Source of the DNA: a virus
Direction: 5' to 3' (one strand)
Virus record (IMG/VR): IMGVR_UViG_3300044632_001684
Span: 1 to 25,074 of that record
DNA length: 25,074 nucleotides
Shown here in pieces: positions 3,317 to 25,074 of the stretch (positions are counted from its first letter, which is position 1; every line of letters begins with the position of its first letter). A program made the position numbers and the translations under genes. Below the pieces are notes generated by a model that was not told the origin of the DNA, ran no database searches, and worked only from the letters and a program-made list of their open reading frames with translations.

Positions 3317-3347
3317 GGCTCGATCTTTAGGGATCGGGCCTTTTTTT
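3317..3347 (+). terminator. Rho-independent terminator after the plus-strand structural genes
   Basis: A 9-bp stem (GGCTCGATC with GATCGGGCC, one G-T wobble), a 6-base loop and a run of seven T. It lies 22 bases after the stop of the 2783 gene and separates that unit from the lysis cassette, which would then need its own promoter or read-through. No convincing promoter was found in 3348-3390. Confidence 0.85.
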
Positions 3348-3390
3348 GTATATACTGGACATATCAAGCTTATTATGTTATTTTACAAAA

Positions 3391-3591
3391 ATGAAAAGCA
3401 TATATACATTGTTTTTTTTATTTTTGCTTGGTTGTTCTAGTGTACCGAGCAATAAAAATACCCCTGTTTTTCAAACTGCACCCAAAGGGTCATCAGGCTC
3501 TCTTGGTAAAAATATTGACGAGCTTGATAGTGTTATGAATAAGTCTTTATCTAGAATAGATAAAATTCTTTTAAACTTAGGAGGCAAATAA
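3391..3591 (+). CDS. Small lipoprotein, possible outer-membrane spanin (Rz1-like)
   Basis: Starting at the ATG at 3391 (an upstream in-frame ATG at 3346 lies at the terminator and would spoil the signal peptide), the 66-residue product has a lipoprotein signal: Lys at position 2, a hydrophobic core and a lipobox LLGC ending at Cys15. The mature part is short and Ser/Pro/Asn-rich. This is the size and layout of outer-membrane spanin subunits, which join the inner-membrane subunit to destroy the outer membrane at the end of phage lysis. Its stop touches the start of the next gene (TAAATG). A Gram-negative host follows if this is right. It could also be an unrelated phage lipoprotein. Confidence 0.65.
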   Translation: MKSIYTLFFLFLLGCSSVPSNKNTPVFQTAPKGSSGSLGKNIDELDSVMNKSLSRIDKILLNLGGK

Positions 3592-4537: not shown

Positions 4538-5123
4538 TAAAGGTATTGAGTTTATTGTTAATGAGGAAACAGGTGGGAGAGCCTATTATGAGAAGGTATA
4601 TAAGAGCACTTTTACCTGGCCAGGAGGAGCATCTGGTCCAACAGCCATGGTGGGTATTGATATTGGCTATTATACTGAAGAAGAAATCGATAGAATCTTT
4701 AAACCATTAACGGATAGCGCTGAGCTATCTTTAATCCGTGGCGGAAGAGGGTTGAAAGGCTTTTTAGCAAAAGAATACACCGTTAAACTTAAAGGTATTA
4801 CGTTTACCTGGGAAGAAGCTATTCAAACATTTAAAGAATTTATTCTTCCTAAATTTACAAAACTTACAGAAAGAGCTTTCCCAGGAGTGTCTGAACTGCA
4901 TGAAAACGCACAAGCAGCCATGGTTTCTCTTGTATTTAACCGTGGGACATCTTTAAAAGGGGCGTCTAGAGTTGAAATGCTAGAATTAAAAAATATTATA
5001 GCTTCTAATAAAGACTACAAAGCTATGGAAGCTCAGTTTAAAAGTATGAAAAGGCTCTGGGACAAAAATAGTGGTCTTGTAGGTCGCAGAGACAGAGAAG
5101 CTGCCTTATTACTCATGGCATAA
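4524..5123 (+). CDS. Endolysin, GH24/pesticin-like lysozyme
   Basis: A 199-residue muramidase-type endolysin that should cleave the glycan chains of peptidoglycan. The ATG at 4524 is chosen because the conserved part begins right after it and a GGAG lies 8 bases upstream; the frame also has an earlier ATG that would add 27 residues with no family resemblance. Visible family features: Glu14/Glu15 in NEETGG as the candidate catalytic acid, then TWPGGASGP and VGIDIGYYT, equivalent to the glycine-rich strand of T4 lysozyme-like enzymes, and a later helix AMVSLVFNRGTS. There is no signal peptide, so release depends on a holin, consistent with the preceding gene. Confidence 0.85.
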   Translation: MKLNDKGIEFIVNEETGGRAYYEKVYKSTFTWPGGASGPTAMVGIDIGYYTEEEIDRIFKPLTDSAELSLIRGGRGLKGFLAKEYTVKLKGITFTWEEAIQTFKEFILPKFTKLTERAFPGVSELHENAQAAMVSLVFNRGTSLKGASRVEMLELKNIIASNKDYKAMEAQFKSMKRLWDKNSGLVGRRDREAALLLMA

Positions 5124-5130
5124 CGCGTAA

Positions 5131-5409
5131 CTAGTCGCGCTCACCTTCATTATCTTCTCCATCCTCTACGTCGAGGCTTTCTTCTTCTTTTAAAGCCATA
5201 TTTTTCATATGCTTTTGAATTGCATCTACATGTAGCTCAGCAAAATTTACTATCCCAAGCTTTATTACAGGATTATCATAAGCTTCGTGAGCATATAGCT
5301 CCCCTTTTTCGTTACACACCAGAAGCATATACCCTCGTGTATATTCTCCCAATTGGTTCAAAAAACTTTTTGGTAATATAAATCCTCGGGAGTTTTGATT
5401 GTCTTCCAT
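5131..5409 (-). CDS. Small unrecognised protein with acidic tail
   Basis: A 92-residue protein, the last gene of the minus-strand arm, convergent with the lysozyme gene and separated from it by only 7 bases. The first 65 residues look like a small folded domain with alternating hydrophobic residues; the C-terminus is a run of Glu and Asp. No motif was recognised. It lies downstream of the strong minus-strand terminator at 5442-5473, so it needs read-through or its own promoter. A TATACT sequence at 5421-5426 is in a plausible -10 position, but without a -35. Function unknown. Confidence 0.55.
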   Translation of the reverse strand: MEDNQNSRGFILPKSFLNQLGEYTRGYMLLVCNEKGELYAHEAYDNPVIKLGIVNFAELHVDAIQKHMKNMALKEEESLDVEDGEDNEGERD

Positions 5410-8297: not shown

Positions 8298-9158
8298 TTA
8301 ATAATTACCTGGAGCCACCTGAAATACAGTTAAGCCCATTTCTCTGAGATGATCTACTACTTGCTGCCTATCGTCAAGAGCAAATTCAATGTAATAGTTA
8401 GGAAGAATCTCATGCCTAAGAATTTCTTCTTTAACCAAGCTGTCTTTGCGGTTGTCTCCAGTAGGACGCATATATAGCATGTACCACGGAGCAAACACAT
8501 CAACGTTACAGACTTCTTTAAGCCATTTATCTGTTTGCGGTCTGAAAGAGTCTTCTCTCCCTGTAAGGAAGATTAACCTATAGCCAAACTGACTTAGTGC
8601 TTTTATAGCATTAAGCACAGGCGGATTAGGTTTATCGGTATCGCACCGCTCAATATCAAATGCAGCTCTATTGTGTATGGCTAATGTACCATCTAGATCT
8701 ACCAGGATAGCTTTTGTTTTACCTGGCGTCTGTACCACCTTTTCTTTCTTTGGTAGTACATACTTTTCGTACATATCAATGATGACTTTATCTGGTACGC
8801 TGCTATCTCTCTTTCTGTTTCTCTCAAGACATACATCAAGAGGAACATCGAAGTCTTTTACCTCAAATTCTGCATTCCAATCCTCAGCGATTTCCTGGAT
8901 AGTGGTTACATGTTTTGCGGCAAAGTTCGTATCATCAACGATAACATCATAATTATGATTAATTGCCGATATGATGATACTGTCGCGAATATCTAGTACT
9001 AGCTCTTCGTTTTCTTGACTCCACTGACTGTTATGGAGCATTGCACGCAAATCATCTTTGTTTACCCTAGAGGTTTTAGGGTTCCTACTAATGTAATCTT
9101 TGGCCCATGTGCTTTTACCTGAGGCCGGCAGACCTCTCAATACAATAATTTTACTCAT
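8298..9158 (-). CDS. pseT: Polynucleotide 5'-kinase / 3'-phosphatase (T4 Pnkp type)
   Basis: A 286-residue two-domain nucleic-acid end-healing enzyme. The N-terminal kinase has a P-loop GLPASGKST (residues 9-17), NKDDLR (33-38) and VDDTN (74-78). The C-terminal phosphatase has the DxDGT acid-phosphatase motif (Asp154, Asp156) and FLTGRED (197-203). Length and domain order match T4 polynucleotide kinase, which adds 5' phosphate and removes 3' or 2',3'-cyclic phosphate before ligation. It overlaps the DNA ligase gene by ATGA and follows the metallophosphatase, forming an end-processing and ligation operon. With the RNA ligase at 14059 it could repair tRNAs cut by host anticodon nucleases. Confidence 0.92.
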   Translation of the reverse strand: MSKIIVLRGLPASGKSTWAKDYISRNPKTSRVNKDDLRAMLHNSQWSQENEELVLDIRDSIIISAINHNYDVIVDDTNFAAKHVTTIQEIAEDWNAEFEVKDFDVPLDVCLERNRKRDSSVPDKVIIDMYEKYVLPKKEKVVQTPGKTKAILVDLDGTLAIHNRAAFDIERCDTDKPNPPVLNAIKALSQFGYRLIFLTGREDSFRPQTDKWLKEVCNVDVFAPWYMLYMRPTGDNRKDSLVKEEILRHEILPNYYIEFALDDRQQVVDHLREMGLTVFQVAPGNY

Positions 9159-10285
9159 ATTACTACGTCTTCTCCTAGAATGTTTCTGAATTTGATGGTA
9201 TTGTTGAACCTCGGTATTCCATCAGTACTGAGGTTTTGATACTTTACAGTAGCGTATAACCCTAGAAGCAATTCGCGGTTTTCCCACAGATGCTGAAGAT
9301 ATTCGACTCCTCCTACAGGAACAGAGTCAAATTCTTTACCATCTCTGGTGGTTAATCTAAGCGTGATACAGCCCTCTCTGTTACCTTTGCCTTCTTTATA
9401 GCCAACAATCAAGAACTCTTCGTCCACAAAATCTTTACGCTTCAGCAGATACTTGGTCCTTTTCTGTTGGTAGGGAGCATCCGCTCTAATCATCTGCCCC
9501 TCATAACCGTCAACCATATACCATTGATACTCTTCATTCAGCTCTTCCCTATTCCAAATCATTTTGGTTTCGACTAGCTTTAAATGTTCGCTGTCTTTAG
9601 GAATCATTACACTCAGATCAAGATCTCTCGTTTTAAATATGAGGTCAGCGAGATCTTCGGATGGTACATAGTCATAAACGTGATACTGTACCATTTGCTT
9701 ACATTTCTCAATGTCTTCGGCCGTAGCTTTAGGTTGCTTGACAATACTCACAATCTCCTCAAAGTTATCTTTTAACTTATGTGAGTACATTTCACCGTCA
9801 AACGCCTGCACTGTTGGATACTTATCAAAGATAGGCTGTAACGCGTCTCTGATATGTTGAAGCGTTGTGAACGGCTTCCATTTACGGCTAAATGCTCCTT
9901 GTCTTGTGACAATACAGCGCAAACCGTCGAGCTTAGGCTGAGAGTACACAGGAAACTCTATCTCTGTGCGATAGTCTTCATAGTTCTTGGCGAGCATAGG
10001 ATCTATCCTATCATCCACTACATCAATATCATTGATGTCTTCTACATAACCTTCGTCTTTCTTCTTCTGCCATCTAGCCTGTGCCTCTCTTAATGCCTGC
10101 TCGTTTGGTGTCGTGGCATTCTTTCTGCCCACGTTTTTACCAGCACAATTTGTTTTTGCGCTAGTAACTTTCTTGCCATCTGTCTGGCCGCTTACAGTCC
10201 AGAAAGAACCATACTCAGAGAAGATAGTCCACTCTTGCGTGGCTCCTGTCGATGTCAGCTTATACAGTGTTGCGAGTTTATTCAT
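9155..10285 (-). CDS. ATP-dependent DNA ligase with WGR-like N-terminal domain
   Basis: A 376-residue ligase that seals nicks in duplex DNA. The nucleotidyl-transfer motif is KLDG at 118-121 (Lys118 takes the AMP), followed by FDGEMY, EGQMIR and LLKRKDF, the usual later motifs, and a C-terminal OB-like region. Residues about 1-80 (LYKLTSTGATQEWTI and a Gly/Lys-rich stretch) resemble the WGR-like domain seen in some phage ligases and probably help DNA binding. It is coupled to the kinase-phosphatase gene (ATGA) and overlaps the metallophosphatase gene by 8 bases. An RNA ligase is less likely given the motif spacing and the N-terminal domain. Confidence 0.9.
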   Translation of the reverse strand: MNKLATLYKLTSTGATQEWTIFSEYGSFWTVSGQTDGKKVTSAKTNCAGKNVGRKNATTPNEQALREAQARWQKKKDEGYVEDINDIDVVDDRIDPMLAKNYEDYRTEIEFPVYSQPKLDGLRCIVTRQGAFSRKWKPFTTLQHIRDALQPIFDKYPTVQAFDGEMYSHKLKDNFEEIVSIVKQPKATAEDIEKCKQMVQYHVYDYVPSEDLADLIFKTRDLDLSVMIPKDSEHLKLVETKMIWNREELNEEYQWYMVDGYEGQMIRADAPYQQKRTKYLLKRKDFVDEEFLIVGYKEGKGNREGCITLRLTTRDGKEFDSVPVGGVEYLQHLWENRELLLGLYATVKYQNLSTDGIPRFNNTIKFRNILGEDVVI

Positions 10286-14058: not shown

Positions 14059-15078
14059 TTAACCTTTCTTCATGTCGTATGGTTGATTCATTACTTTTAA
14101 GCTCCACCAGGGCTTCTGTAATACTAATGACCTGACTGGTGATACAGGCCTGATAACAATACCTTCTGCATTAGTTCGGCCATGATCGTATTTTGCATTA
14201 TTTGCTATCTCTTGCAATTCTTCTAGAGTAGGAGAAGTTTCAGTAAATTTAAACACCGTCAGCTCTTCCACATGAGGAATTTGATTTTCTCTACAAAAGG
14301 TTTTTAATGTATCCCAGCTTAACCATTTATCGTGTTTAATATCCTTCATCAGGAAGGCGAAAAATGTAAGCTCAGTCAGCTTCATAGGATTACCTTGAAT
14401 TCCGGGACCGCAAACTTCTCCCTGCAACGCAGTATTATCACCAAATTTTAATAGCTTTTCATGCAAGCTATACTTTTTGGCTACCTGCCAGAAAGCATTC
14501 CCCTCTGTCTCTTTTAGCTCAAGGTTTCTAGAGCATACTCGAAACTCGCCGTTTTTAGCTATAAATGTGCCACTGCTACCGTCGCATTTAAGAGTAATAA
14601 CAAACTCTTGGTTTACAAGTGGAGATAGACGAGCTTCATTGAGGGCATTAGGCTCGGATCTAACATTAAATTCATCCGTTTTTGAGATAATGCCAGTTGG
14701 AAAATTACCTGCAGCATCTCCTGCTATAGAAGCTGCTGCAGGCGCAACCCATTTCTCAATACCTAATAGTTCGCTGACTTCATCTCCTTCATTAAAGCTA
14801 TTACCTACAACACTCATAGGTAGCAGGAGTCCTGCACTATACTGCCCTTTTAACTTAACAGTTTTTAACCTTACTTTATCATCACCCTGATACGCTCCAT
14901 CTAAAAATTTTTTAGGTACAAGAGTGTCAGGAAAAATCATTACAACAAGATCGCCTACACTGTGTAGATATTTTTGAGTAACTACTTTCCACCCCAAGAC
15001 TGTAGCTGTTTCAATTCTGTCTGCGCCTTCTATTGGAGCTAGTTCTAATACTCTGGCTACTACTGCGTATTTTTCCAT
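14059..15078 (-). CDS. RNA ligase, DraRnl/Rnl5-like, with N-terminal OB-type domain
   Basis: The ATG at 15078 (MEKYAVVARV) is chosen since the conserved domain starts there; an in-frame ATG at 15129 would overlap the upstream gene by 47 bases. The 339-residue protein has an N-terminal OB-fold-like domain (about 1-110, resembling the tRNA-binding domain fold) and a nucleotidyltransferase core: KCDGSSGT (Lys164 is the AMP acceptor), LQGEVCGPG, EGIVIR (305-310) and SLKVMN. This order, with the OB domain first, is that of the Deinococcus Rnl-type ligases, which seal 3'-OH/5'-phosphate nicks in RNA-containing duplexes. With the kinase-phosphatase it suggests RNA repair. Confidence 0.88.
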   Translation of the reverse strand: MEKYAVVARVLELAPIEGADRIETATVLGWKVVTQKYLHSVGDLVVMIFPDTLVPKKFLDGAYQGDDKVRLKTVKLKGQYSAGLLLPMSVVGNSFNEGDEVSELLGIEKWVAPAAASIAGDAAGNFPTGIISKTDEFNVRSEPNALNEARLSPLVNQEFVITLKCDGSSGTFIAKNGEFRVCSRNLELKETEGNAFWQVAKKYSLHEKLLKFGDNTALQGEVCGPGIQGNPMKLTELTFFAFLMKDIKHDKWLSWDTLKTFCRENQIPHVEELTVFKFTETSPTLEELQEIANNAKYDHGRTNAEGIVIRPVSPVRSLVLQKPWWSLKVMNQPYDMKKG

Positions 15079-15082
15079 AATC

Positions 15083-15499
15083 TTATTTATTGTAGTTTTC
15101 GTCATTATGATCCCAACAGAATACAACATTATCGTATCCTCCTAGTTCATCTTGCAGATTATGACTAATCACTCTTTCCCATATCCAATACCTGTTAGCT
15201 AATCCAGCCCCCAATTTTGAGATGTAAAATTTATGTGTAGGATTGTTTTTAATATGTGCAGATAATTGATCTAACTGATCGAAAAAAGGTTTAGCATATT
15301 CTTCGGGTGTAAAACATGCACCCTGATTATTTGTAGGCTCTTTTTTAGTTACAAACCCTATAGCTCTAGGATGATTGCGAAGTTTTGCTGCACCACCCAA
15401 ACCTATTCTTTGTGCATTATCTCCATAAACAAAAAATGCGTTAGGTTCGTTATTTAATATTTCTTCAGTTACAATAATGCTTTTATACGTAGCAGGCAT
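15083..15499 (-). CDS. Conserved phage protein with GDN and GGAA motifs, macro-like
   Basis: A 138-residue protein containing FVYGDNAQRIGLGGAAKLRNHP (residues about 23-44), IGFVTKKEPTNN, FYISKLGAGLAN and a C-terminal VVFCWD. This set of motifs marks a family often found in phages and bacteria; the glycine-rich loops and the GDN-GGAA arrangement suggest nucleotide or ADP-ribose binding as in macro or DprA/LOG-like folds, which is inference. Catalytic role unknown. It lies 4 bases before the RNA ligase start, so a link with NAD or ADP-ribose chemistry or RNA repair is conceivable. Confidence 0.65.
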   Translation of the reverse strand: MPATYKSIIVTEEILNNEPNAFFVYGDNAQRIGLGGAAKLRNHPRAIGFVTKKEPTNNQGACFTPEEYAKPFFDQLDQLSAHIKNNPTHKFYISKLGAGLANRYWIWERVISHNLQDELGGYDNVVFCWDHNDENYNK

Positions 15500-16769: not shown

Positions 16770-16844
16770 TGGCTCCAAGACCTGGACTCGAACCAGGAAC
16801 CGTTCGGTTAACAGCCGAATGCTCTACCATTGAGCTATCTTGGA
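16770..16844 (-). tRNA. tRNA-Asn (GTT), CCA encoded
   Basis: Acceptor TCCAAGA/TCTTGGA, D arm with AATGGTA loop, anticodon stem TTCGG/CCGAA around loop CTGTTAA (anticodon at 16810-16812 on the plus strand), T arm CCTGG-TTCGAGT-CCAGG, discriminator G and an encoded CCA. All arms form. It reads AAC/AAT codons, which are frequent in this phage. Usual class I shape. Confidence 0.95.
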
Positions 16845-16853
16845 ATAAAAGTG

Positions 16854-16935
16854 AGCCTCGAGTGGGAATCGAACCCACAGTAGCTTTCGCTGCTGGTTTA
16901 CAAAACCAGTCCTTTACCATTCAGGGCATCGAGGC
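16854..16935 (-). tRNA. tRNA-Thr (TGT) with long variable arm
   Basis: Acceptor GCCTCGA/TCGAGGC, anticodon stem CTGGT/ACCAG around loop TTTGTAA (anticodon TGT), T arm GTGGG-TTCGATT-CCCAC, discriminator T, no encoded CCA. The variable region is 14 bases with an AGC-GAAA-GCT hairpin, a class II feature normally confined to Leu, Ser and Tyr tRNAs. The D stem has one C-A mismatch. The register gives Thr; aminoacylation identity is therefore uncertain. Confidence 0.8.
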
Positions 16936-16945
16936 ATTTAAAGTG

Positions 16946-17027
16946 TGGGCAGTGATGGACTCGAACCATCGGTCTCCGAAGAGGGGAGATTTACAGTCTC
17001 CTGCAATAGCCGCTATGCGAACTACCC
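16946..17027 (-). tRNA. tRNA-Tyr (GTA), class II
   Basis: Acceptor GGGTAGT/ACTGCCC with one T-G pair, D stem GCA/TGC, anticodon stem GGAGA/TCTCC around CTGTAAA (anticodon GTA), a long variable arm with CTC-TTCG-GAG, T arm GATGG-TTCGAGT-CCATC, discriminator A, no encoded CCA. This is the normal bacterial class II Tyr shape. Nine bases separate it from the Thr gene on the same strand. Confidence 0.93.
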
Positions 17028-17030
17028 ATT

Positions 17031-17134
17031 AAAATTATCTAGTACTCTCCCAGTGTCACACCACTTCCCAACTGTGGCCATAAGGTGGACCCTCAATCAG
17101 ACCTAGGCGGCATGGAGCCACCGGCAGGTGTCGC
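17031..17134 (-). ncRNA. Structured RNA element, copy B (between tRNA-fMet-like and tRNA-Tyr)
   Basis: No gene or tRNA fits here. The element shares two blocks with copy A: a 36-base left block (17031-17066) and a right block (17123-17134). In minus-strand RNA, ACACC (17127-17131) pairs with GGTGT (17058-17062); in copy A the last pair is A-T instead of C-G, a compensating change. Inside lies a strong hairpin, GGTGGC/GCCGCC with loop TCCAT. The element ends with an ACACTGGGAGAG tail and CTAGA a few bases before tRNA-Tyr. No known RNA family was recognised. Confidence 0.7.
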
Positions 17135-17154
17135 TCTCCAATTGGAGGAGAAAT

Positions 17155-17228
17155 TGGTTGCGGGACCAGGAATCGAACCTGGGACTGGAGCTTATGAGAC
17201 TCCTATTTTACCACTTCACTATCCCGCG
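17155..17228 (-). tRNA. tRNA-Met (CAT), initiator-like end
   Basis: Acceptor CGCGGGA/TCCCGCA forms six pairs with positions 1 and 72 left as C and A, the mismatch that marks bacterial initiator tRNA for formylation. Anticodon stem GGAGT/GCTCC encloses CTCATAA (anticodon CAT); T arm CCAGG-TTCGATT-CCTGG; discriminator A; CCA encoded. The initiator's three G-C pairs in the anticodon stem are not present, and the D stem is weak. Elongator Met or Ile2 (lysidine) are alternatives, but neither normally has C1xA72. Confidence 0.85.
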
Positions 17229-19499: not shown

Positions 19500-19973
19500 T
19501 TACAAACTTAACCGATTTAAATCTCGGGTATTGAGTTTAGATAACGCTGTAGCAATCCCCACATTATAACAAAAGGGATCTTTTTTCGAGCATTCGCTGG
19601 ATAGACAGATATACTCCTGGTCTTTCATATGTATCGTAATATGTGTAAACCCACCCTTAGGCTGCAGCTTGTAGTGCGGGCTATGTCTAAAGGTAGAGGG
19701 CACAACAAGCTCTCTTACACCCCTATGCAACCCCATAAAAAAAGCATTAGGAATATATAGTGCATATCGGAGATGTCTTATTCTAACCTTAAACCCAGCG
19801 GATGTCAGTTTATCTATTGTGACGCCATTACTGCTTACTGTGTGAGTTTTACGTGAAAGCCTTTCCTTGTATGGCCAAGACCATGACTTTCCTGTAATTT
19901 TATCAGTTTTCACAAAGCAATTAGTTTGCTCGTCAAATACTGTATTGTACCACGCGATTTCTTTTTTACTCAT
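19500..19973 (-). CDS. Unrecognised protein coupled to the recombinase (157 aa)
   Basis: A 157-residue basic protein that overlaps the recombinase end by 8 bases. It is rich in Lys, Arg, His and aromatic residues, with segments KVRIRHLRYALYIP and GGFTHITIHMKDQEYICLSSECSKKDPFCYN carrying three Cys near residues 122-134. It looks like a mixed beta-rich domain, possibly with a metal site, but the Cys spacing matches no known finger. A nucleic-acid-binding accessory of the recombinase is plausible from context and charge only. Confidence 0.55.
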   Translation of the reverse strand: MSKKEIAWYNTVFDEQTNCFVKTDKITGKSWSWPYKERLSRKTHTVSSNGVTIDKLTSAGFKVRIRHLRYALYIPNAFFMGLHRGVRELVVPSTFRHSPHYKLQPKGGFTHITIHMKDQEYICLSSECSKKDPFCYNVGIATALSKLNTRDLNRLSL

Positions 19974-21168
19974 AATCTGTAACCAACGGTTCGACTTCTA
20001 ATTCACTTACACGTTTACGCCTAGTTTTGTTTACTTTTTCAATTTCCATCTCAAGCTGAGGATCTGGCATATCGGGAATACCAAAGGCCTTACGGATTAT
20101 CTCTTTGGCCTCGCTGCTGTTTTTGATCACAAACCCTAGATCTTGCTCACGAAATTTCTTTTCCGTGTCAATATTGAGTATCTGCTGTTCTCCCTCGATA
20201 TCTAGTGTGAACGGCACTTCAGGAGTTTTCCATGTATACCAACCACCAGTCTTCCCTACTAGCGCAGGATAATGCTCGCCAAGTAGGCGCACAAGAGGAG
20301 AATACCAATCAATGCCCCCATTGATATGGATGTCAAACTCGATCTTCTGGCTATTACCCTCACGGCCAAGCTTGTTTCGCTTGACTGTAAGTGTATGAGT
20401 AGAGCCTGCCTTGCGCTTTACTCCCATGTGATCTTCTTCGAGGTTATCTTTGATGCGGGCCACCTTGAACTGGTAGGTAGAATTGAAGCGTTGAGCTTCA
20501 CCGCCAATTAATGCTTCGGGCTTCTCAGTACCAAAGCCTGCCATACCTCCAATTTGCTCTTTGAGCTGATTGGTAGCAACAAACACCATGTTCTCACACT
20601 CTAGATAAGGAATAATATTCCTATAGAATGCACTCATGAGTTTGGCGTGCTCGCCCACTTTTGTCTGACCAATAACATCCTGATCGCGCTCATAGTCAGT
20701 ACTAGCACCTGCAATACTGTCTAGAGCAATAAGGATAGGAGTCTTACCATCACTATGCTTGGCATAGTTCTGGATGATGATCTTACACAAGGTAAGAGCT
20801 TCCTCAAGACTCTTGGGATTATGATAAATCACATGCTTTGGATCTACTCCCTGCAACTCCATATATCTGAAGTCCGGGGCGTTCTCGGTCTCAATCCAGA
20901 ACATCTTTCCTCCAGCCTTCTGGAATACTTTAGCCAGGTCGAACAATAGCGTTGTCTTGGAACAACCTTTCTTGCCATAGAGCAGATAGCACCGACCGTA
21001 GGCCATAAACCTACGGTCGAATGCGTACTCTAGTAGAGGGTTATCCAACACAATGCCTGTAGGCGGCAATTCCTTGTCCGCCGTATTCAATTCAAGATTA
21101 ACAGCTTCAGACTTGAATGTCTTACCGAAGTTTTTTTTGATTGAGTTTAGGTATGTGTCTATATCCAT
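19966..21168 (-). CDS. RecA/UvsX-like recombinase
   Basis: A 400-residue RecA-family ATPase. Walker A is GKKGCSKTT at 65-73, Walker B is PILIALDS at about 143-150, and MVFVATNQLKEQ with GGEAQRF and the following basic segment match the L1/L2 DNA-binding region of recombinases. Length is close to T4 UvsX. It would coat single-stranded DNA and drive strand exchange, with the binding protein encoded just upstream. The C-terminus is charged (EIEKVNKTRRKRVSELEVEP). The N-terminal 35 residues are short relative to RecA. Confidence 0.9.
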   Translation of the reverse strand: MDIDTYLNSIKKNFGKTFKSEAVNLELNTADKELPPTGIVLDNPLLEYAFDRRFMAYGRCYLLYGKKGCSKTTLLFDLAKVFQKAGGKMFWIETENAPDFRYMELQGVDPKHVIYHNPKSLEEALTLCKIIIQNYAKHSDGKTPILIALDSIAGASTDYERDQDVIGQTKVGEHAKLMSAFYRNIIPYLECENMVFVATNQLKEQIGGMAGFGTEKPEALIGGEAQRFNSTYQFKVARIKDNLEEDHMGVKRKAGSTHTLTVKRNKLGREGNSQKIEFDIHINGGIDWYSPLVRLLGEHYPALVGKTGGWYTWKTPEVPFTLDIEGEQQILNIDTEKKFREQDLGFVIKNSSEAKEIIRKAFGIPDMPDPQLEMEIEKVNKTRRKRVSELEVEPLVTDYE

Positions 21169-21175
21169 ATTTTAT

Positions 21176-22228
21176 TTAGTCTTGGTTGATGAACTTAAGC
21201 GCGTCTGCGCGACTCAGCTTGCCTGCCATCGGATTTGGTGGCAAGGAAGAAATGTCCGCAACTGCAGGAGCATTAACTGGCGCTACTGGCGCTGTCAATG
21301 ATACTCTTGGAATTTCCACAGCAGCCACAGGTGCAGGCGCTGAGGTCACAGCTTTAGCGATTTCCATCTTGGGTCTAGCAGGAATTGGAGGCAGCTCTTC
21401 AGCTTGAGGTTGTTGCGTAATCTGCTTCGGGGATACATTGAAGCTGGCCGTGCTAGTTTTGCCAAGACCAGGATAGCCGTTCATGCAATCATCAAACACA
21501 TCAGCAGAGTACATTTCACGAAGCTTTGCAATGATCTCTTCTTTCGGTTTAATTACGAAGATCTCGTCAAGGTTATAGAGATAATCGCTATCAGCAAGCT
21601 GCTCAGGCAATTGTACAGGAGAATTGCCTTCAACTTGTACCATCCAAGGATTTGCGCTGTTTTCCTTCAGCTTTACAAACACAGGAATGCAGCGATCAGG
21701 ATCATTGATAGGATTGCGAGGATTTCCACGCATATCCTTACCTTCAAGCCAGTTCATTAGTGTGTCAGCGCCATTCCTTAACGGCAAATCCAGCACATGA
21801 GCTCCGGCAGGGAGATTCTGAGCAAACGCCACATTGTACACTACACGCTCGGTCGCGCGACCGAAATTAGGGTACTTCTTGAATTTGCGACCATTCACTT
21901 CAGTATCTGTAACCTTCGCCTCTTCAGGATACAAGATCTTGAAGTTGTTTGCGAAATACTCTGCAGGGTCGTTAGCCCTGTTGGCTACGTAGTATTTTTC
22001 CTTGAAGTTAGTGCCGAAGTTATCGCGGATTATGATCTTCTTGTACCAGATACCATTACCAGCAGAGTCGGCTTTGTATGCTGGTAGGAAATACAGATAT
22101 GCACCTTCCTGGTTATTGGTCTTGTTGAATACTGCTCTACGCACATTGTCTTGTATGTATGGAGTTGCGGATACGGTGAGATTGAGTTCTGAGCCTTCGA
22201 ATTTTAGTGAGGGTCTGATGATAGCCAT
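21176..22228 (-). CDS. Gp32-like single-stranded DNA-binding protein
   Basis: A 350-residue protein with an aromatic- and Lys-rich core (about 1-230: YLYFLPAYKADSAGNGIWYKK, FKKYPNFGRATERVVYNVAF, MVQVEGNSPVQLP), typical of phage gp32-type binding proteins, then a Pro/Ala-rich linker (about 250-330) and a C-terminal tip LSRADALKFINQD. The classical gp32 zinc-binding Cys/His cluster is not apparent. It sits 7 bases before the recombinase start, the standard partnership. The linker is unusually long and rich in VAPVNAP-like repeats, probably a flexible tether for partner proteins. Confidence 0.75.
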   Translation of the reverse strand: MAIIRPSLKFEGSELNLTVSATPYIQDNVRRAVFNKTNNQEGAYLYFLPAYKADSAGNGIWYKKIIIRDNFGTNFKEKYYVANRANDPAEYFANNFKILYPEEAKVTDTEVNGRKFKKYPNFGRATERVVYNVAFAQNLPAGAHVLDLPLRNGADTLMNWLEGKDMRGNPRNPINDPDRCIPVFVKLKENSANPWMVQVEGNSPVQLPEQLADSDYLYNLDEIFVIKPKEEIIAKLREMYSADVFDDCMNGYPGLGKTSTASFNVSPKQITQQPQAEELPPIPARPKMEIAKAVTSAPAPVAAVEIPRVSLTAPVAPVNAPAVADISSLPPNPMAGKLSRADALKFINQD

Positions 22229-22275: not shown

Positions 22276-22563
22276 TTACTTTACGTGTTCTTCTAGATTT
22301 GTGAACCATTTAAACTTTGCTGATATCTTTATATTTAGCTTTTTTAACATACCAAAGCACTGGTCGTAAGCACAAAACAGCGCTATTTGTTTTTGCTTTT
22401 TTGCTTTATAGCCTTTGATGATAGCCATAAGCAACTCTTTGTTTAGCTCCCAATCATCTTTCCGAATATCTACAATAAGACATATTTTGTCAAGCAGCCC
22501 TAGCAGATATTTTTCTGCAATATCTTTTTGAGCTTGAGCATCATTATTTTTGTTTGCATCCAT
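22276..22563 (-). CDS. Small unrecognised protein downstream of the E1 gene (95 aa)
   Basis: A 95-residue helical protein. Its ATG overlaps the E1-like gene stop by one base (TAATG), so the two are translated together. It has Lys/Gln-rich segments, the sequence ELNKELLMAIIKGYKAKKQKQIALFCAYDQCFGML, and ends in TNLEEHVK. It does not end in Gly-Gly and shows no clear ubiquitin fold, so it is not an obvious ubiquitin-like substrate. Part of the putative ubiquitin-like operon by position. A 47-base gap with a repeated GTTA follows. Confidence 0.55.
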   Translation of the reverse strand: MDANKNNDAQAQKDIAEKYLLGLLDKICLIVDIRKDDWELNKELLMAIIKGYKAKKQKQIALFCAYDQCFGMLKKLNIKISAKFKWFTNLEEHVK

Positions 22564-23159
22564 TAAACCATGAACACAGATTTAAACGTCTGCTGTCCCC
22601 TCAGTTTATTAAGAAACGCCTGTACCATCATACCTGCAACGATGGTTGGAAGAGTGTGGCTAATATTCTGCTCTTTCTCGTAAGCAAGCAGGCAGCCTCC
22701 CTCTTCTTGAGAATCATCGATGTAAGGCTCTAGAGCAGGCTTAAGCATATCAGATGTGAATAGCGCGCCCTGCCTGCTTGTACACCTGCCGTCGATCCAA
22801 AATACTTTATCTTTACCTACTTTCCAGCCATATTCGTACAGGCTTTTCCTGAACTGCATACTGTCCACGCAGCTGAATATTACATCGTATTTGCTGAAGT
22901 CAGTTTCATTCATTCTGCGGTCAACGCCGTTCGCAATATACTTATCTTCCAGCACTTTGACTTTATGTTTGCCCACGTCATCAATTTTGAAGTTTTGATG
23001 AAGTAGATTTTTAATATCGACCGTGTCATCGTCGTAGATATCAACCTCAATATCCATATAACTGAATTGTTTACGATTGTAGCCGTAATCAAATAGTATA
23101 CTAAGCAGATTGGAGCCTATACCTCCGGCTCCGGCAATTGCGATTTTTTCTATTTTCAT
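22563..23159 (-). CDS. ThiF/E1-like ubiquitin-activating-type enzyme
   Basis: A 198-residue Rossmann-fold adenylating enzyme: AGAGGIGSN (9-17) is the nucleotide loop, then DIYDDDTVDIKNLLHQNF (40-57), with the Asp and Asn of the E1 active site, Lys66, and SCVDSMQFR (96-104) with the later Asp. Cys156 in EEGGCLLAYE, before a TLPTIVAGMMVQAFL helix, sits where E1s carry the catalytic Cys. The usual NLxRQ arginine is His54. Such proteins adenylate the C-terminus of a ubiquitin-like protein or sulphur carrier. It lies 1 base after the JAMM gene (TAATATG), as in bacterial ubiquitin-like operons and PRTRC clusters. Confidence 0.85.
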   Translation of the reverse strand: MKIEKIAIAGAGGIGSNLLSILFDYGYNRKQFSYMDIEVDIYDDDTVDIKNLLHQNFKIDDVGKHKVKVLEDKYIANGVDRRMNETDFSKYDVIFSCVDSMQFRKSLYEYGWKVGKDKVFWIDGRCTSRQGALFTSDMLKPALEPYIDDSQEEGGCLLAYEKEQNISHTLPTIVAGMMVQAFLNKLRGQQTFKSVFMV

Positions 23160-23160
23160 A

Positions 23161-23595
23161 TTATTTAATTAATTTTTCTATTGTTTTAATTGGTAGGTAT
23201 GTAACACAAGAATCATCTCCTATCCATTGAGAATAGGAGAATGTTCTGTGTGTTGGTGACCATATTACGTTATATCTAAAGCCTTGAAATAAGGCATCCA
23301 GATCGAGAGCGCTGGGTGTTGGGCTGAACGATGGATGTGTATGAAAACTGGCATGCATCTTCCACCCTTTACATACTCTGGAGAATACCAATTGAGACAA
23401 TTCTTCTTGATCTGTCTCATATAGCCCACAAGCTCTATCAGTTCCTTCGTAAACGTTTTTAACTCTCACGAATTCAAACACTCCTTCTTTTTCCATAATA
23501 ATACCACCCTCCTCTTCTTTAGTGCTGAGGCACTCTTCGGAAGCTTTTATCATGGCTTTCAGGAACAATTCTGTACCATATCTAAATATATACAT
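23161..23595 (-). CDS. JAMM/MPN+ metallopeptidase (deubiquitinase-like)
   Basis: The ATG at 23595 gives a TAATATG junction with the upstream stop; a TTG at 23610 is the furthest alternative. The 144-residue protein has the complete JAMM set: an acidic start with Glu29 before GG, then HASFHTHP (81-88: His85, His87), P94-S95 and Asp98. This Zn2+ site cleaves isopeptide or peptide bonds after the ubiquitin-like Gly-Gly, releasing or maturing the modifier. Adjacent to the E1-like gene, it makes the minimal pair of a ubiquitin-like system. RadC-type or tail-assembly JAMM proteins are alternatives, less likely here given the partner. Confidence 0.87.
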   Translation of the reverse strand: MYIFRYGTELFLKAMIKASEECLSTKEEEGGIIMEKEGVFEFVRVKNVYEGTDRACGLYETDQEELSQLVFSRVCKGWKMHASFHTHPSFSPTPSALDLDALFQGFRYNVIWSPTHRTFSYSQWIGDDSCVTYLPIKTIEKLIK

Positions 23596-23596
23596 A

Positions 23597-25060
23597 TTAT
23601 GCTTTTTCAAATAACTTGTCTACTATCGGAGCAATTACATCTTGTACGTCACGTTCTGGTCTGTAGTCATTATGCACATTTTCGGCCCCTGGTTGAGCCG
23701 CTCCTCTTAATGTACCTATCTGATCTTGCATCATAGAGTCATTCTTTAGCGCCAATAGTCTGCTGGCTACGTCGTCATAGCCAGCACCCTTGTAGTGTCT
23801 GTCATTTACAATGCAGCGATACTGCTTTGTTTCGTAATCGTAAACCTTGGCGGTTTTGATTACCACGACATACTCTCTTAGGCTACCCTTGACTTTATAG
23901 GATTTCTCACCCATAAACTCAATTTCTTCAGCGCCTGTGAGTTTTACTGCAGTGTTTAGGAATTGCTTTGATCTTTCAATCTTAGCTTTGTTTTGTTCTT
24001 CAACTACCTGTAACAGTTTGGTCACATCTTCTTTAGAGATCATGGTCACATCTTTCTCTACTATTGTGTCATCTTCCAAACTTTTAAACTTTACAGGAAA
24101 CGTAGTAAACTCAATCAAGGCTTTTGTAAGCTCTTCCGCAGCCCAAAGGTGGTCTCTATTTCGATAATAATTATCTGCATAGTATCCTCTATTGTTAGTT
24201 TTTGAGTTGATTGTTTTTACCTTTTTAATCAACCCGCTAATATCTATAGGCACCTGGCGATTTTCATCGACATACAGCTTAATCCGCTTGTCTTCCTTGT
24301 CTATAATAAACTTCAGAGCTGGAGCATTTATTCCGGGCGTTTCTTGTCTGAACTCATCAGGAGTCATCCCTGAGTGAATTTTTACATGAAGCCCGTTTGC
24401 AATAATATCGTGCCTCCTAATACTCATCCGGCTAATACTCTTCAGAAACAATCCATATTCCTCAGCTGATCTGTAGCAAGAAGCGCGATATATGGCTTTT
24501 GCTATCTCGTCCTGATTAATCCTGATATTGTTTAAGTACCTTTGGCCTGTATGGGAAACGGTTGCAGATATGCTAATTCCGTTTATTTTAAATACAGGTA
24601 GACCCTTTAGCTTGAGGTCGTTTGCGCCGGCGTTGATGTCGTCAATTTCCTGGTAATCCCAGCTCTTGGCGTTTAGGGCGCTTTGCACGTAATTGGCGTA
24701 CAGTTGAGCTATAGCGTAAATGTCAAACTCGCCATTAAAGTCAAGATCTCTCGACAGTATAGTCATGAGATTCTCGGCCTCAATTTCAGTATTTTCATAC
24801 TTAGCTGTTGTTGATGTAAACACTATGTCCCTGATTGTAGTTTTATCAATTTCACCGCCGAGCAATTTACCCACCACAACCAGCGTTGTATTTTTACGAT
24901 AATCTTCATCAAGAAGCTTTGATTGCTTTAAGTATAAAGATTTAGCCTCAGGAGTTAGCTTTCTGAGCATTTTAAGCTTAAGCATTTCTGCATCATATTT
25001 ACTTACAAAACACTCATCTTTTAGAAGACTGATTAGATTATGCTGTATTTTACACATCAT
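23597..25060 (-). CDS. Large unrecognised protein of the E1/JAMM operon
   Basis: A 487-residue protein, two ATGs at 25058-25060 and 25055-25057 marking the visible start; the frame stays open to the window end, so the real start may lie beyond. The N-terminal half is helical and charged. Middle segments are GLPVFKINGISISATVSHTG and MSIRRHDIIANGLHVKIHSG; the C-terminal part contains YRCIVNDRHYKGAGYDDVASRLLALKND and a polar tail ending in DKLFEKA. No Gly-Gly end. No family was recognised. It abuts the JAMM gene, so it may be the modified target, a Ubl fusion or a scaffold of the system. Confidence 0.6.
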   Translation of the reverse strand: MMCKIQHNLISLLKDECFVSKYDAEMLKLKMLRKLTPEAKSLYLKQSKLLDEDYRKNTTLVVVGKLLGGEIDKTTIRDIVFTSTTAKYENTEIEAENLMTILSRDLDFNGEFDIYAIAQLYANYVQSALNAKSWDYQEIDDINAGANDLKLKGLPVFKINGISISATVSHTGQRYLNNIRINQDEIAKAIYRASCYRSAEEYGLFLKSISRMSIRRHDIIANGLHVKIHSGMTPDEFRQETPGINAPALKFIIDKEDKRIKLYVDENRQVPIDISGLIKKVKTINSKTNNRGYYADNYYRNRDHLWAAEELTKALIEFTTFPVKFKSLEDDTIVEKDVTMISKEDVTKLLQVVEEQNKAKIERSKQFLNTAVKLTGAEEIEFMGEKSYKVKGSLREYVVVIKTAKVYDYETKQYRCIVNDRHYKGAGYDDVASRLLALKNDSMMQDQIGTLRGAAQPGAENVHNDYRPERDVQDVIAPIVDKLFEKA

Positions 25061-25074
25061 AAAAACATGGGCAG

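Follow-up and report, generated by a model that had tools for sequence, protein, structure and literature searches.

The DNA stretch studied here (the window) is the entire IMG/VR record IMGVR_UViG_3300044632_001684, a linear sequence of 25,074 bp which is probably a fragment. Its minus strand carries an operon in which the genes of an E1-like enzyme (ThiF) and of a JAMM peptidase (Prok-JAB) are found together, and this operon belongs to a real, conserved, phage-encoded module for a ubiquitin-like protein (Ubl). The parts of the module, the candidate catalytic residues, the Gly-Gly motif of the Ubl, the fixed gene order, the purifying selection and the genomic setting can all be read from the sequences of the window and of related viral contigs. 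It is probable that the operon is a phage-owned ubiquitin-like modification system, providing the processing, the activation and probably also the conjugation of the Ubl. A candidate module of this kind had been proposed in an initial annotation of the window, and this proposal is now supported, with the Ubl partner that it presupposed being encoded in the relatives.

The E1 gene (22563..23159, minus strand) encodes a ThiF-fold adenylyltransferase of 198 residues, which matches Pfam ThiF with an E-value of 3.6e-19 (69.3 bits, cut-off 28.1). The top match in NCBIfam is PRTRC_ThiF (2.1e-13), where the 50.2 bits are under the family cut-off of 144.75 bits, and the ThiF model is second (3.3e-11). 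The profile comparison with seven plasmid PRTRC ThiF proteins gives a probability of 99.4%, and, as judged from these sequence comparisons, it is the E1 by which the module is related to the PRTRC systems of plasmids. Twelve residues are shared by all of 26 aligned E1s, of which 19 come from this phage family, six are plasmid PRTRC ThiF proteins and one is from a Flavobacterium phage; these invariant residues are G10, G12, G13, D43, N51, Q55, D61, K66, D99, R104, D123 and C156. Cys156 (22694-22692) is well supported as the catalytic candidate, because it is the only invariant cysteine, and Cys126 is kept within this phage family only. The nucleotide loop and the candidate catalytic cysteine described in the initial annotation are in agreement with this alignment.

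The JAMM gene (23161..23595, minus strand) encodes a metallopeptidase of 144 residues, matching Pfam Prok-JAB with an E-value of 2.4e-7 (31.1 bits, cut-off 25). As its start, the ATG at 23595 is more probable than the TTG at 23610, since it is the one used in the close relatives. The complete metal site noted earlier is confirmed, as Glu28 (23514-23512), His85 (23343-23341), His87 (23337-23335) and Asp98 (23304-23302), together with Ser95 (23313-23311), are invariant in 22 aligned sequences and are visibly kept in five further divergent loci. In nine of the ten long relatives that were searched whole, which are linear records and may be incomplete, there is exactly one Prok-JAB gene; the tenth (G015) has no Pfam Prok-JAB match, yet its JAMM is detected by the profile made from this family. 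The tight coupling of the genes is also as first described, with the junction sequence TAATATG found between JAMM and E1 as well as between JAMM and the preceding gene, here called BIG, and with TAATG between E1 and the gene of a 95-residue protein (22276..22563, minus strand). The latter protein, which is mostly helical by eye, is indeed present in the operon, but no family matches it above the cut-off, and it is probably accessory, because tblastn finds it in only six of 11 relatives (L002-L006 and L010).

The modifier itself is encoded outside the window. The relatives were gathered from viral contigs with an E1 query (11 contigs), a BIG query (23) and an E1 profile (29), and the union of these searches comprises 30 contigs besides the window. 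Profile searches find a small gene directly upstream of BIG in 29 of these 30 contigs, the 30th (L073) beginning inside the operon. In the window, the Ubl gene is absent because the contig ends inside BIG; from the spacing in the close relatives L003 and L005 it is expected about 0.7-1.0 kb past position 25074. The earlier statement that no product ends in Gly-Gly is thus true for the window, because the contig stops too early, and the suggestion that the modifier lies past 25074 agrees with the relatives, where all 29 contigs reaching this region encode a predicted β-grasp protein with an invariant Gly-Gly motif. One Ubl per record is found in each of the ten long relatives.

The conserved core of the Ubl measures about 85 residues. 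It is often extended at the N terminus, and in most cases the protein ends with LTGxLxGG followed by a tail. When 24 de-duplicated sequences are aligned, only Gly13, Leu67, Gly83 and Gly84 are invariant, the Gly-Gly motif being present in all 24; by our own arithmetic the chance that both Gly-Gly columns fall among four random invariant columns of 86 is about 0.002. The number of residues after the Gly-Gly is zero in three of these Ubls and one to nine, without a common sequence, in 19, whereas in L078 and L080 it is 157 and 75, respectively. A conserved Gly-Gly followed by a variable end is the pattern of a processed precursor. The long stretches of L078 (gene at 4644-5372) and L080 (4922-5404) share a domain of about 60 residues, which is seen nowhere else in the loci searched. 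In the window, a plus-strand frame of 81 codons (3346-3591), with a TTG start and a GGK end, is not detected with the Ubl profile and is possibly fortuitous.

The AlphaFold model of the Ubl has the topology β-β-α-β-β-α-β (mean pLDDT 80.4, pTM 0.66). When this model is compared with the PDB by Foldseek, the top match is a trypanosome ubiquitin-like protein with an E-value of 0.032 and a probability of 0.77, and no match is as good as 0.001. With VIA-align, the top match is the ubiquitin-like domain of Ddi1 (Z 4.7, root-mean-square deviation 3.1, 69 residues), and PB1, protein G and ISG15 are found at a similar Z. The model supports a predicted β-grasp fold, without pointing to a specific relative. 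The sequence search against the PDB gives nothing significant. The Pfam matches are weak and scattered, and the commonest of these, Binary_toxB_3 (four of 24 sequences, best E-value 0.0063), is taken as chance.

The remaining conserved protein, BIG, had been described as a protein of 487 residues, which has to be corrected, since the frame (23597..25072, minus strand) is open to the contig edge and corresponds to the C-terminal part, about 490 codons, of a protein of about 700 residues. The full-length proteins of 11 relatives have 691-730 residues, and the window part is 81% identical to the full-length protein of L005. Two cysteines, Cys403 (24478-24476) and Cys628 (23815-23813), in L005 numbering, are invariant in 25 BIG homologues. 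The BIG model (pLDDT 83.6, pTM 0.56) has, near its C terminus, a helix (563-587), four strands (590-620), Cys628 and a further helix (641-651). The region of about 553-666 weakly resembles chains of Mediator and of Ctf19-Mcm21 (Z 2.5-3.5), which we take to be RWD-type, E2-like folds, and Foldseek with the whole model finds one Mediator chain (E-value 0.013) with a poor TM-score. The order of these C-terminal elements is that of an E2, the E2 fold being a four-strand meander flanked by helices, as given in the text excerpts of Iyer et al. 2006 (PMC1779556). Among the matches listed in the Ubl and BIG fold searches there is no E2 enzyme, which is uninformative either way.

At the sequence level, BIG finds nothing among the solved structures at an E-value of 1 or below. 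Pfam DUF7737, for which we know of no function, weakly matches 21 of the 25 BIG proteins (best 0.0015, none shown above the cut-off), and the Cys628 domain (the 23815 region of the window) may therefore have cellular relatives. In BFVD, two viral proteins of 441 residues (3e-7) and 452 residues (5e-6) are matched. BIG is a candidate transfer enzyme; from the model and the two invariant cysteines, such a role is a lead, possible but somewhat doubtful.

The order Ubl-BIG-JAMM-E1 on one strand is preserved in 27 of the 31 contigs (the 30 relatives and the window). In three of the exceptions (L027, L073 and the window) the contig ends truncate the operon, and the fourth (L028) has an insert that splits the E1 gene. 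This insert of about 1.1 kb (9300-10477 of L028, IMGVR_UViG_3300027749_000235) interrupts the nucleotide-binding region and carries a frame that is LAGLIDADG-like by eye; it matches no Rfam family and is more likely an intron than an intein, because a stop directly follows the first E1 part. The gap between BIG and JAMM exceeds 500 bases in 15 of the 29 contigs having both genes and, where tested, holds a gene like 3'-5' exonucleases (RNase_H_2 6e-6 in L072). This gene, of about 210-220 codons (for example L008 8904-9530 and L072 6891-7559), occurs in about half of the contigs and not in the window.

The operon is located among replication genes and not among tail genes. Of the two findings by which the proposal of the initial annotation would have been refuted, a genome lacking any Ubl or sulphur-carrier partner and a JAMM protein belonging to tail assembly, neither is observed. 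In L005, one flank has genes for a DnaB-type helicase, for a polymerase I whose N-terminal part matches uracil-DNA glycosylase and for a GP88-family protein, and the opposite flank has SSB-like, UvsX and, by eye, RuvC-like genes. The polymerase I-type and uracil-DNA glycosylase matches of L005 (3274-5961) lie in a single frame of 896 residues. In the window, the gene next to the module (21176..22228, minus strand) encodes a conserved protein of 350 residues, which adjoins the module in the loci mapped and is a possible substrate; it is SSB-like by position and look only, and matches nothing in Pfam or NCBIfam and nothing convincingly in PHROG. It is followed by a UvsX/RecA-like recombinase gene (19966..21168, minus strand; Pfam RecA 4.5e-23, PHROG UvsX-like 6.2e-35), which places the module in a recombination cluster. 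Elsewhere, the window has genes for a polynucleotide kinase-phosphatase, an ATP-dependent DNA ligase and an RNA ligase as well as four tRNA genes (8298-9158, 9155-10285, 14059-15129 and 16770-17228), together a nucleic-acid repair set.

The ratio of nonsynonymous to synonymous substitution rates (dN/dS) of the module is 0.03-0.17 in the pairs with unsaturated dS, the values for E1 being 0.036-0.038 in the two such pairs out of four. The module is under strong purifying selection. In a search of 50,697 phage records, cultured phages yield no match to BIG, Ubl or JAMM; E1 is matched by Flavobacterium phages only (29 records, about 30% identity), and no relative is confirmed in the bacterial genome contigs scanned with the BIG and E1 alignments. 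Shine-Dalgarno-like words occur in four of 22 upstream regions of the window, compared with 2.9 expected, which is no excess; taken together with the E1 matches in Flavobacterium phages, this suggests, as a guess, that the host is one of the Bacteroidota.

In the mechanism that we propose, the Ubl, with its β-grasp core of about 85 residues, would be made as a precursor in which the invariant Gly-Gly is followed by a mostly short, variable tail. The JAMM peptidase, being the natural candidate for the processing of such a precursor, would cut it after the Gly-Gly, and the small E1 would adenylate the freed glycine and probably hold the Ubl on Cys156 through a thioester bond. Transfer to target proteins would follow, either directly or, if BIG is a transfer enzyme, via its two invariant cysteines; the most likely targets belong to the replication and recombination machinery or are proteins of the host that act on the DNA of the phage. 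The JAMM peptidase could also reverse the tagging, and some second role of this kind, such as tag removal, is likely; the three Ubls that have no tail are also accompanied by a JAMM gene, which does not decide its action on the tag. Activation and processing of the Ubl are highly probable, and its conjugation is likely. In its most complete form, the proposal is that of a full phage conjugation pathway within a replication and recombination operon, comprising a new family of Ubls with tailed precursors, an E1 of minimal size, a JAMM peptidase and BIG as a new class of transfer enzyme that uses an invariant cysteine for the E2 role; in this pathway the tag would regulate replisome or recombination proteins as a viral counterpart of the ubiquitination and SUMOylation of PCNA; this complete form is rather unlikely.

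Several observations weigh against a ubiquitin-like modification system. Neither Foldseek, VIA-align nor Pfam gives a significant fold or family match for the Ubl, so that the only basis for its fold is a single model with an intermediate confidence, and the BIG model has no significant structural match in the PDB. Profile comparison (hhalign) detects no kinship between BIG and the PRTRC proteins B and F. The initial annotation had looked ahead to a small β-grasp protein or an E2-like protein as partner; the former is found, but two known E2 families, Prok-E2_B and UQ_con, are each found in none of ten relatives searched, whose records may be incomplete. In the E1, the arginine of the NxxRQ motif of PRTRC E1s is replaced by His54 in all 19 members of the phage family.

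A further such observation concerns the alternative that the E1 thiocarboxylates the Ubl, as in ThiS-ThiF, MoaD-MoeB or TtuB, and that the sulphur is delivered to a tRNA, a nucleotide or a cofactor, with JAMM trimming the precursor or releasing the product, for which CysO and Mec+ are a precedent. Enzymes of the ThiF fold also serve sulphur transfer, ThiF models are second-best for this E1, the window has its four tRNA genes and, counting against conjugation, the sulphur could be borrowed from host desulfurases. However, rhodanese, cysteine desulfurase (Aminotran_5) and ATP_bind_3 (TilS/TtuA-type) genes are each found in none of ten relatives searched; among 14 genomes used as controls, the same searches give matches in 13 or in all 14. 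The E1 is also nearer to PRTRC_ThiF than to ThiF, and sulphur transfer leaves the fixed linkage to BIG and the invariant cysteines unexplained. A sulphur carrier system is improbable.

Host anti-phage systems with E1, E2 and JAB components exist, and the module could also block or imitate such Ubl-based systems (Bil, CBASS Cap2/Cap3), for example by JAMM stripping host tags or by tagging of a defence protein. The weak PADLOC matches, of E1 to an E1-E2 model (1.1e-5) and of JAMM to a JAB model (4.8e-4), are in line with this. Anti-defence genes are usually found in shifting accessory regions, whereas this module lies in the replication core, where its gene order is constant and purifying selection is strong, and a whole set with its own Ubl exceeds what stripping needs; counter-defence is a similarly improbable, slightly less favoured explanation. 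It is very unlikely that the E1 is an adenylyltransferase of the MccB type acting on a peptide in the biosynthesis of a ribosomally synthesized and post-translationally modified peptide or a small molecule: ThiF-like enzymes do work in such pathways, according to the text excerpts of PMC12250964, but the candidate substrate here is a conserved, predicted β-grasp protein of about 85 residues with a JAMM partner, and no transport or biosynthetic genes are noted in the neighbourhood maps. Finally, a JAMM peptidase of a λ-type TAPI/TAPK tail-assembly pathway with E1 as a bystander, which is suggested by the top PHROG match of JAMM (tail protein family phrog_5556, 4.7e-7) and by the pairing of the Ub-like TAPI with a JAB protein in λ-type phages (excerpts of PMC1779556), is rejected on the gene context, as the surrounding genes encode a helicase, a polymerase, an SSB-like protein and UvsX, JAMM has no NlpC/P60 domain in Pfam and its linkage to E1 and Ubl is fixed.

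Ubiquitin-like modification remains the preferred explanation, and in these large, uncultured phages the genes of the Ubl, the E1 and the JAMM peptidase invariably belong to the core of replication genes. To our knowledge, the known prokaryotic Ubl systems with E1 and JAB belong to bacteria, where they often are anti-phage defences, or to plasmids. If the explanation is true, phages run their own protein tagging with a very small gene set, which could be reconstituted in vitro, and phages would allow tests of what E1s of the PRTRC type, on which little work has been done, are for. In the titles and abstract openings of the literature searched, with preprints and most subscription journals outside the scope, no phage E1-Ubl-JAMM set is described, so that novelty is unproven; the terms 'ubiquitin' and 'ThiF' are absent from two papers on jumbo or large phages.

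As in known Ubl conjugation, the module combines a predicted β-grasp modifier carrying a C-terminal Gly-Gly with an E1 having an ATP-binding loop and a candidate thioester cysteine. With BilABCD and CBASS Cap2/Cap3 it shares an E1 and a JAB peptidase and probably also Ubl-type conjugation; those systems serve bacterial defence, their E1s are larger and their E2 domains can be recognised, whereas the phage module, matching PADLOC models only weakly, is the phage's own. ThiS-ThiF and MoaD-MoeB likewise consist of a small Gly-Gly protein and a ThiF-fold adenylyltransferase, but 21 of the 24 phage Ubls have a tail after the Gly-Gly, and sulphur-donor genes of three families are not found in ten relatives searched. 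The excerpts of Iyer et al. 2006 (PMC1779556) describe Ub-like and JAB genes in λ-type tail clusters as well as bacterial operons of E1, E2, JAB and Ub-like genes. The TAPI (Ub-like) and TAPK (JAB plus NlpC/P60) proteins of phages λ and T1 (same excerpts) also pair a phage Ub-like protein with a JAB peptidase, but they belong to a tail cluster, with an NlpC domain and without an E1, the phage module being the reverse on all these points.

A further comparison is that with PRTRC, the plasmid system of ParB, proteins E, C, F, B and A and ThiF. Both have a related E1 with the same lone cysteine, and in both a Ubl-like gene comes first and a JAB gene beside E1 comes last, as in the order C-F-B-A-ThiF of Cupriavidus and Paraburkholderia; the place between Ubl and JAB is held by F and B there and by BIG here. 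In our reading, PRTRC corresponds to operon type '6d' in Iyer et al. 2006. Filing the module as PRTRC is nevertheless rejected, since the phage E1 is far under the PRTRC_ThiF cut-off and the PRTRC_C model matches none of 11 records at E-values up to 10. The profile comparison of the Ubl with four PRTRC C proteins (hhalign) gives 1.4%. As to the JAB protein A, a JAMM is present, and its profile comparison with two A proteins gives 0.3%. ParB, E and F are not recognised, and BIG, in the place of protein B, shows weak RWD-like structural matches only and no sequence kinship. The idea that BIG is a fusion of F and B gets no support from hhalign. PRTRC is a plasmid partition cluster, whereas the phage module is part of a replication cluster.

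This setting is shared with the Fipvunavirus phages of Flavobacterium (FpV4 and others), in which gp50, a related E1, and gp51, which is JAB-like, are also encoded among replication genes. In FpV4 (L053 3532-7543, gp53-gp50), gp53 has, by eye, a Ubl-like start, KSGG and a long tail, and is followed by gp52, by gp51 (Prok-JAB 0.0076, under the cut-off) and by gp50 (ThiF 4e-12), which is deposited as 'thiamine biosynthesis protein'. Unlike in the phage module, there is no BIG, and only the E1 is demonstrably related to that of the window. The FpV4 cluster adjoins primase, uracil-DNA glycosylase and exonuclease genes, and as these phages are cultured, a cluster that is probably analogous is available from isolates.

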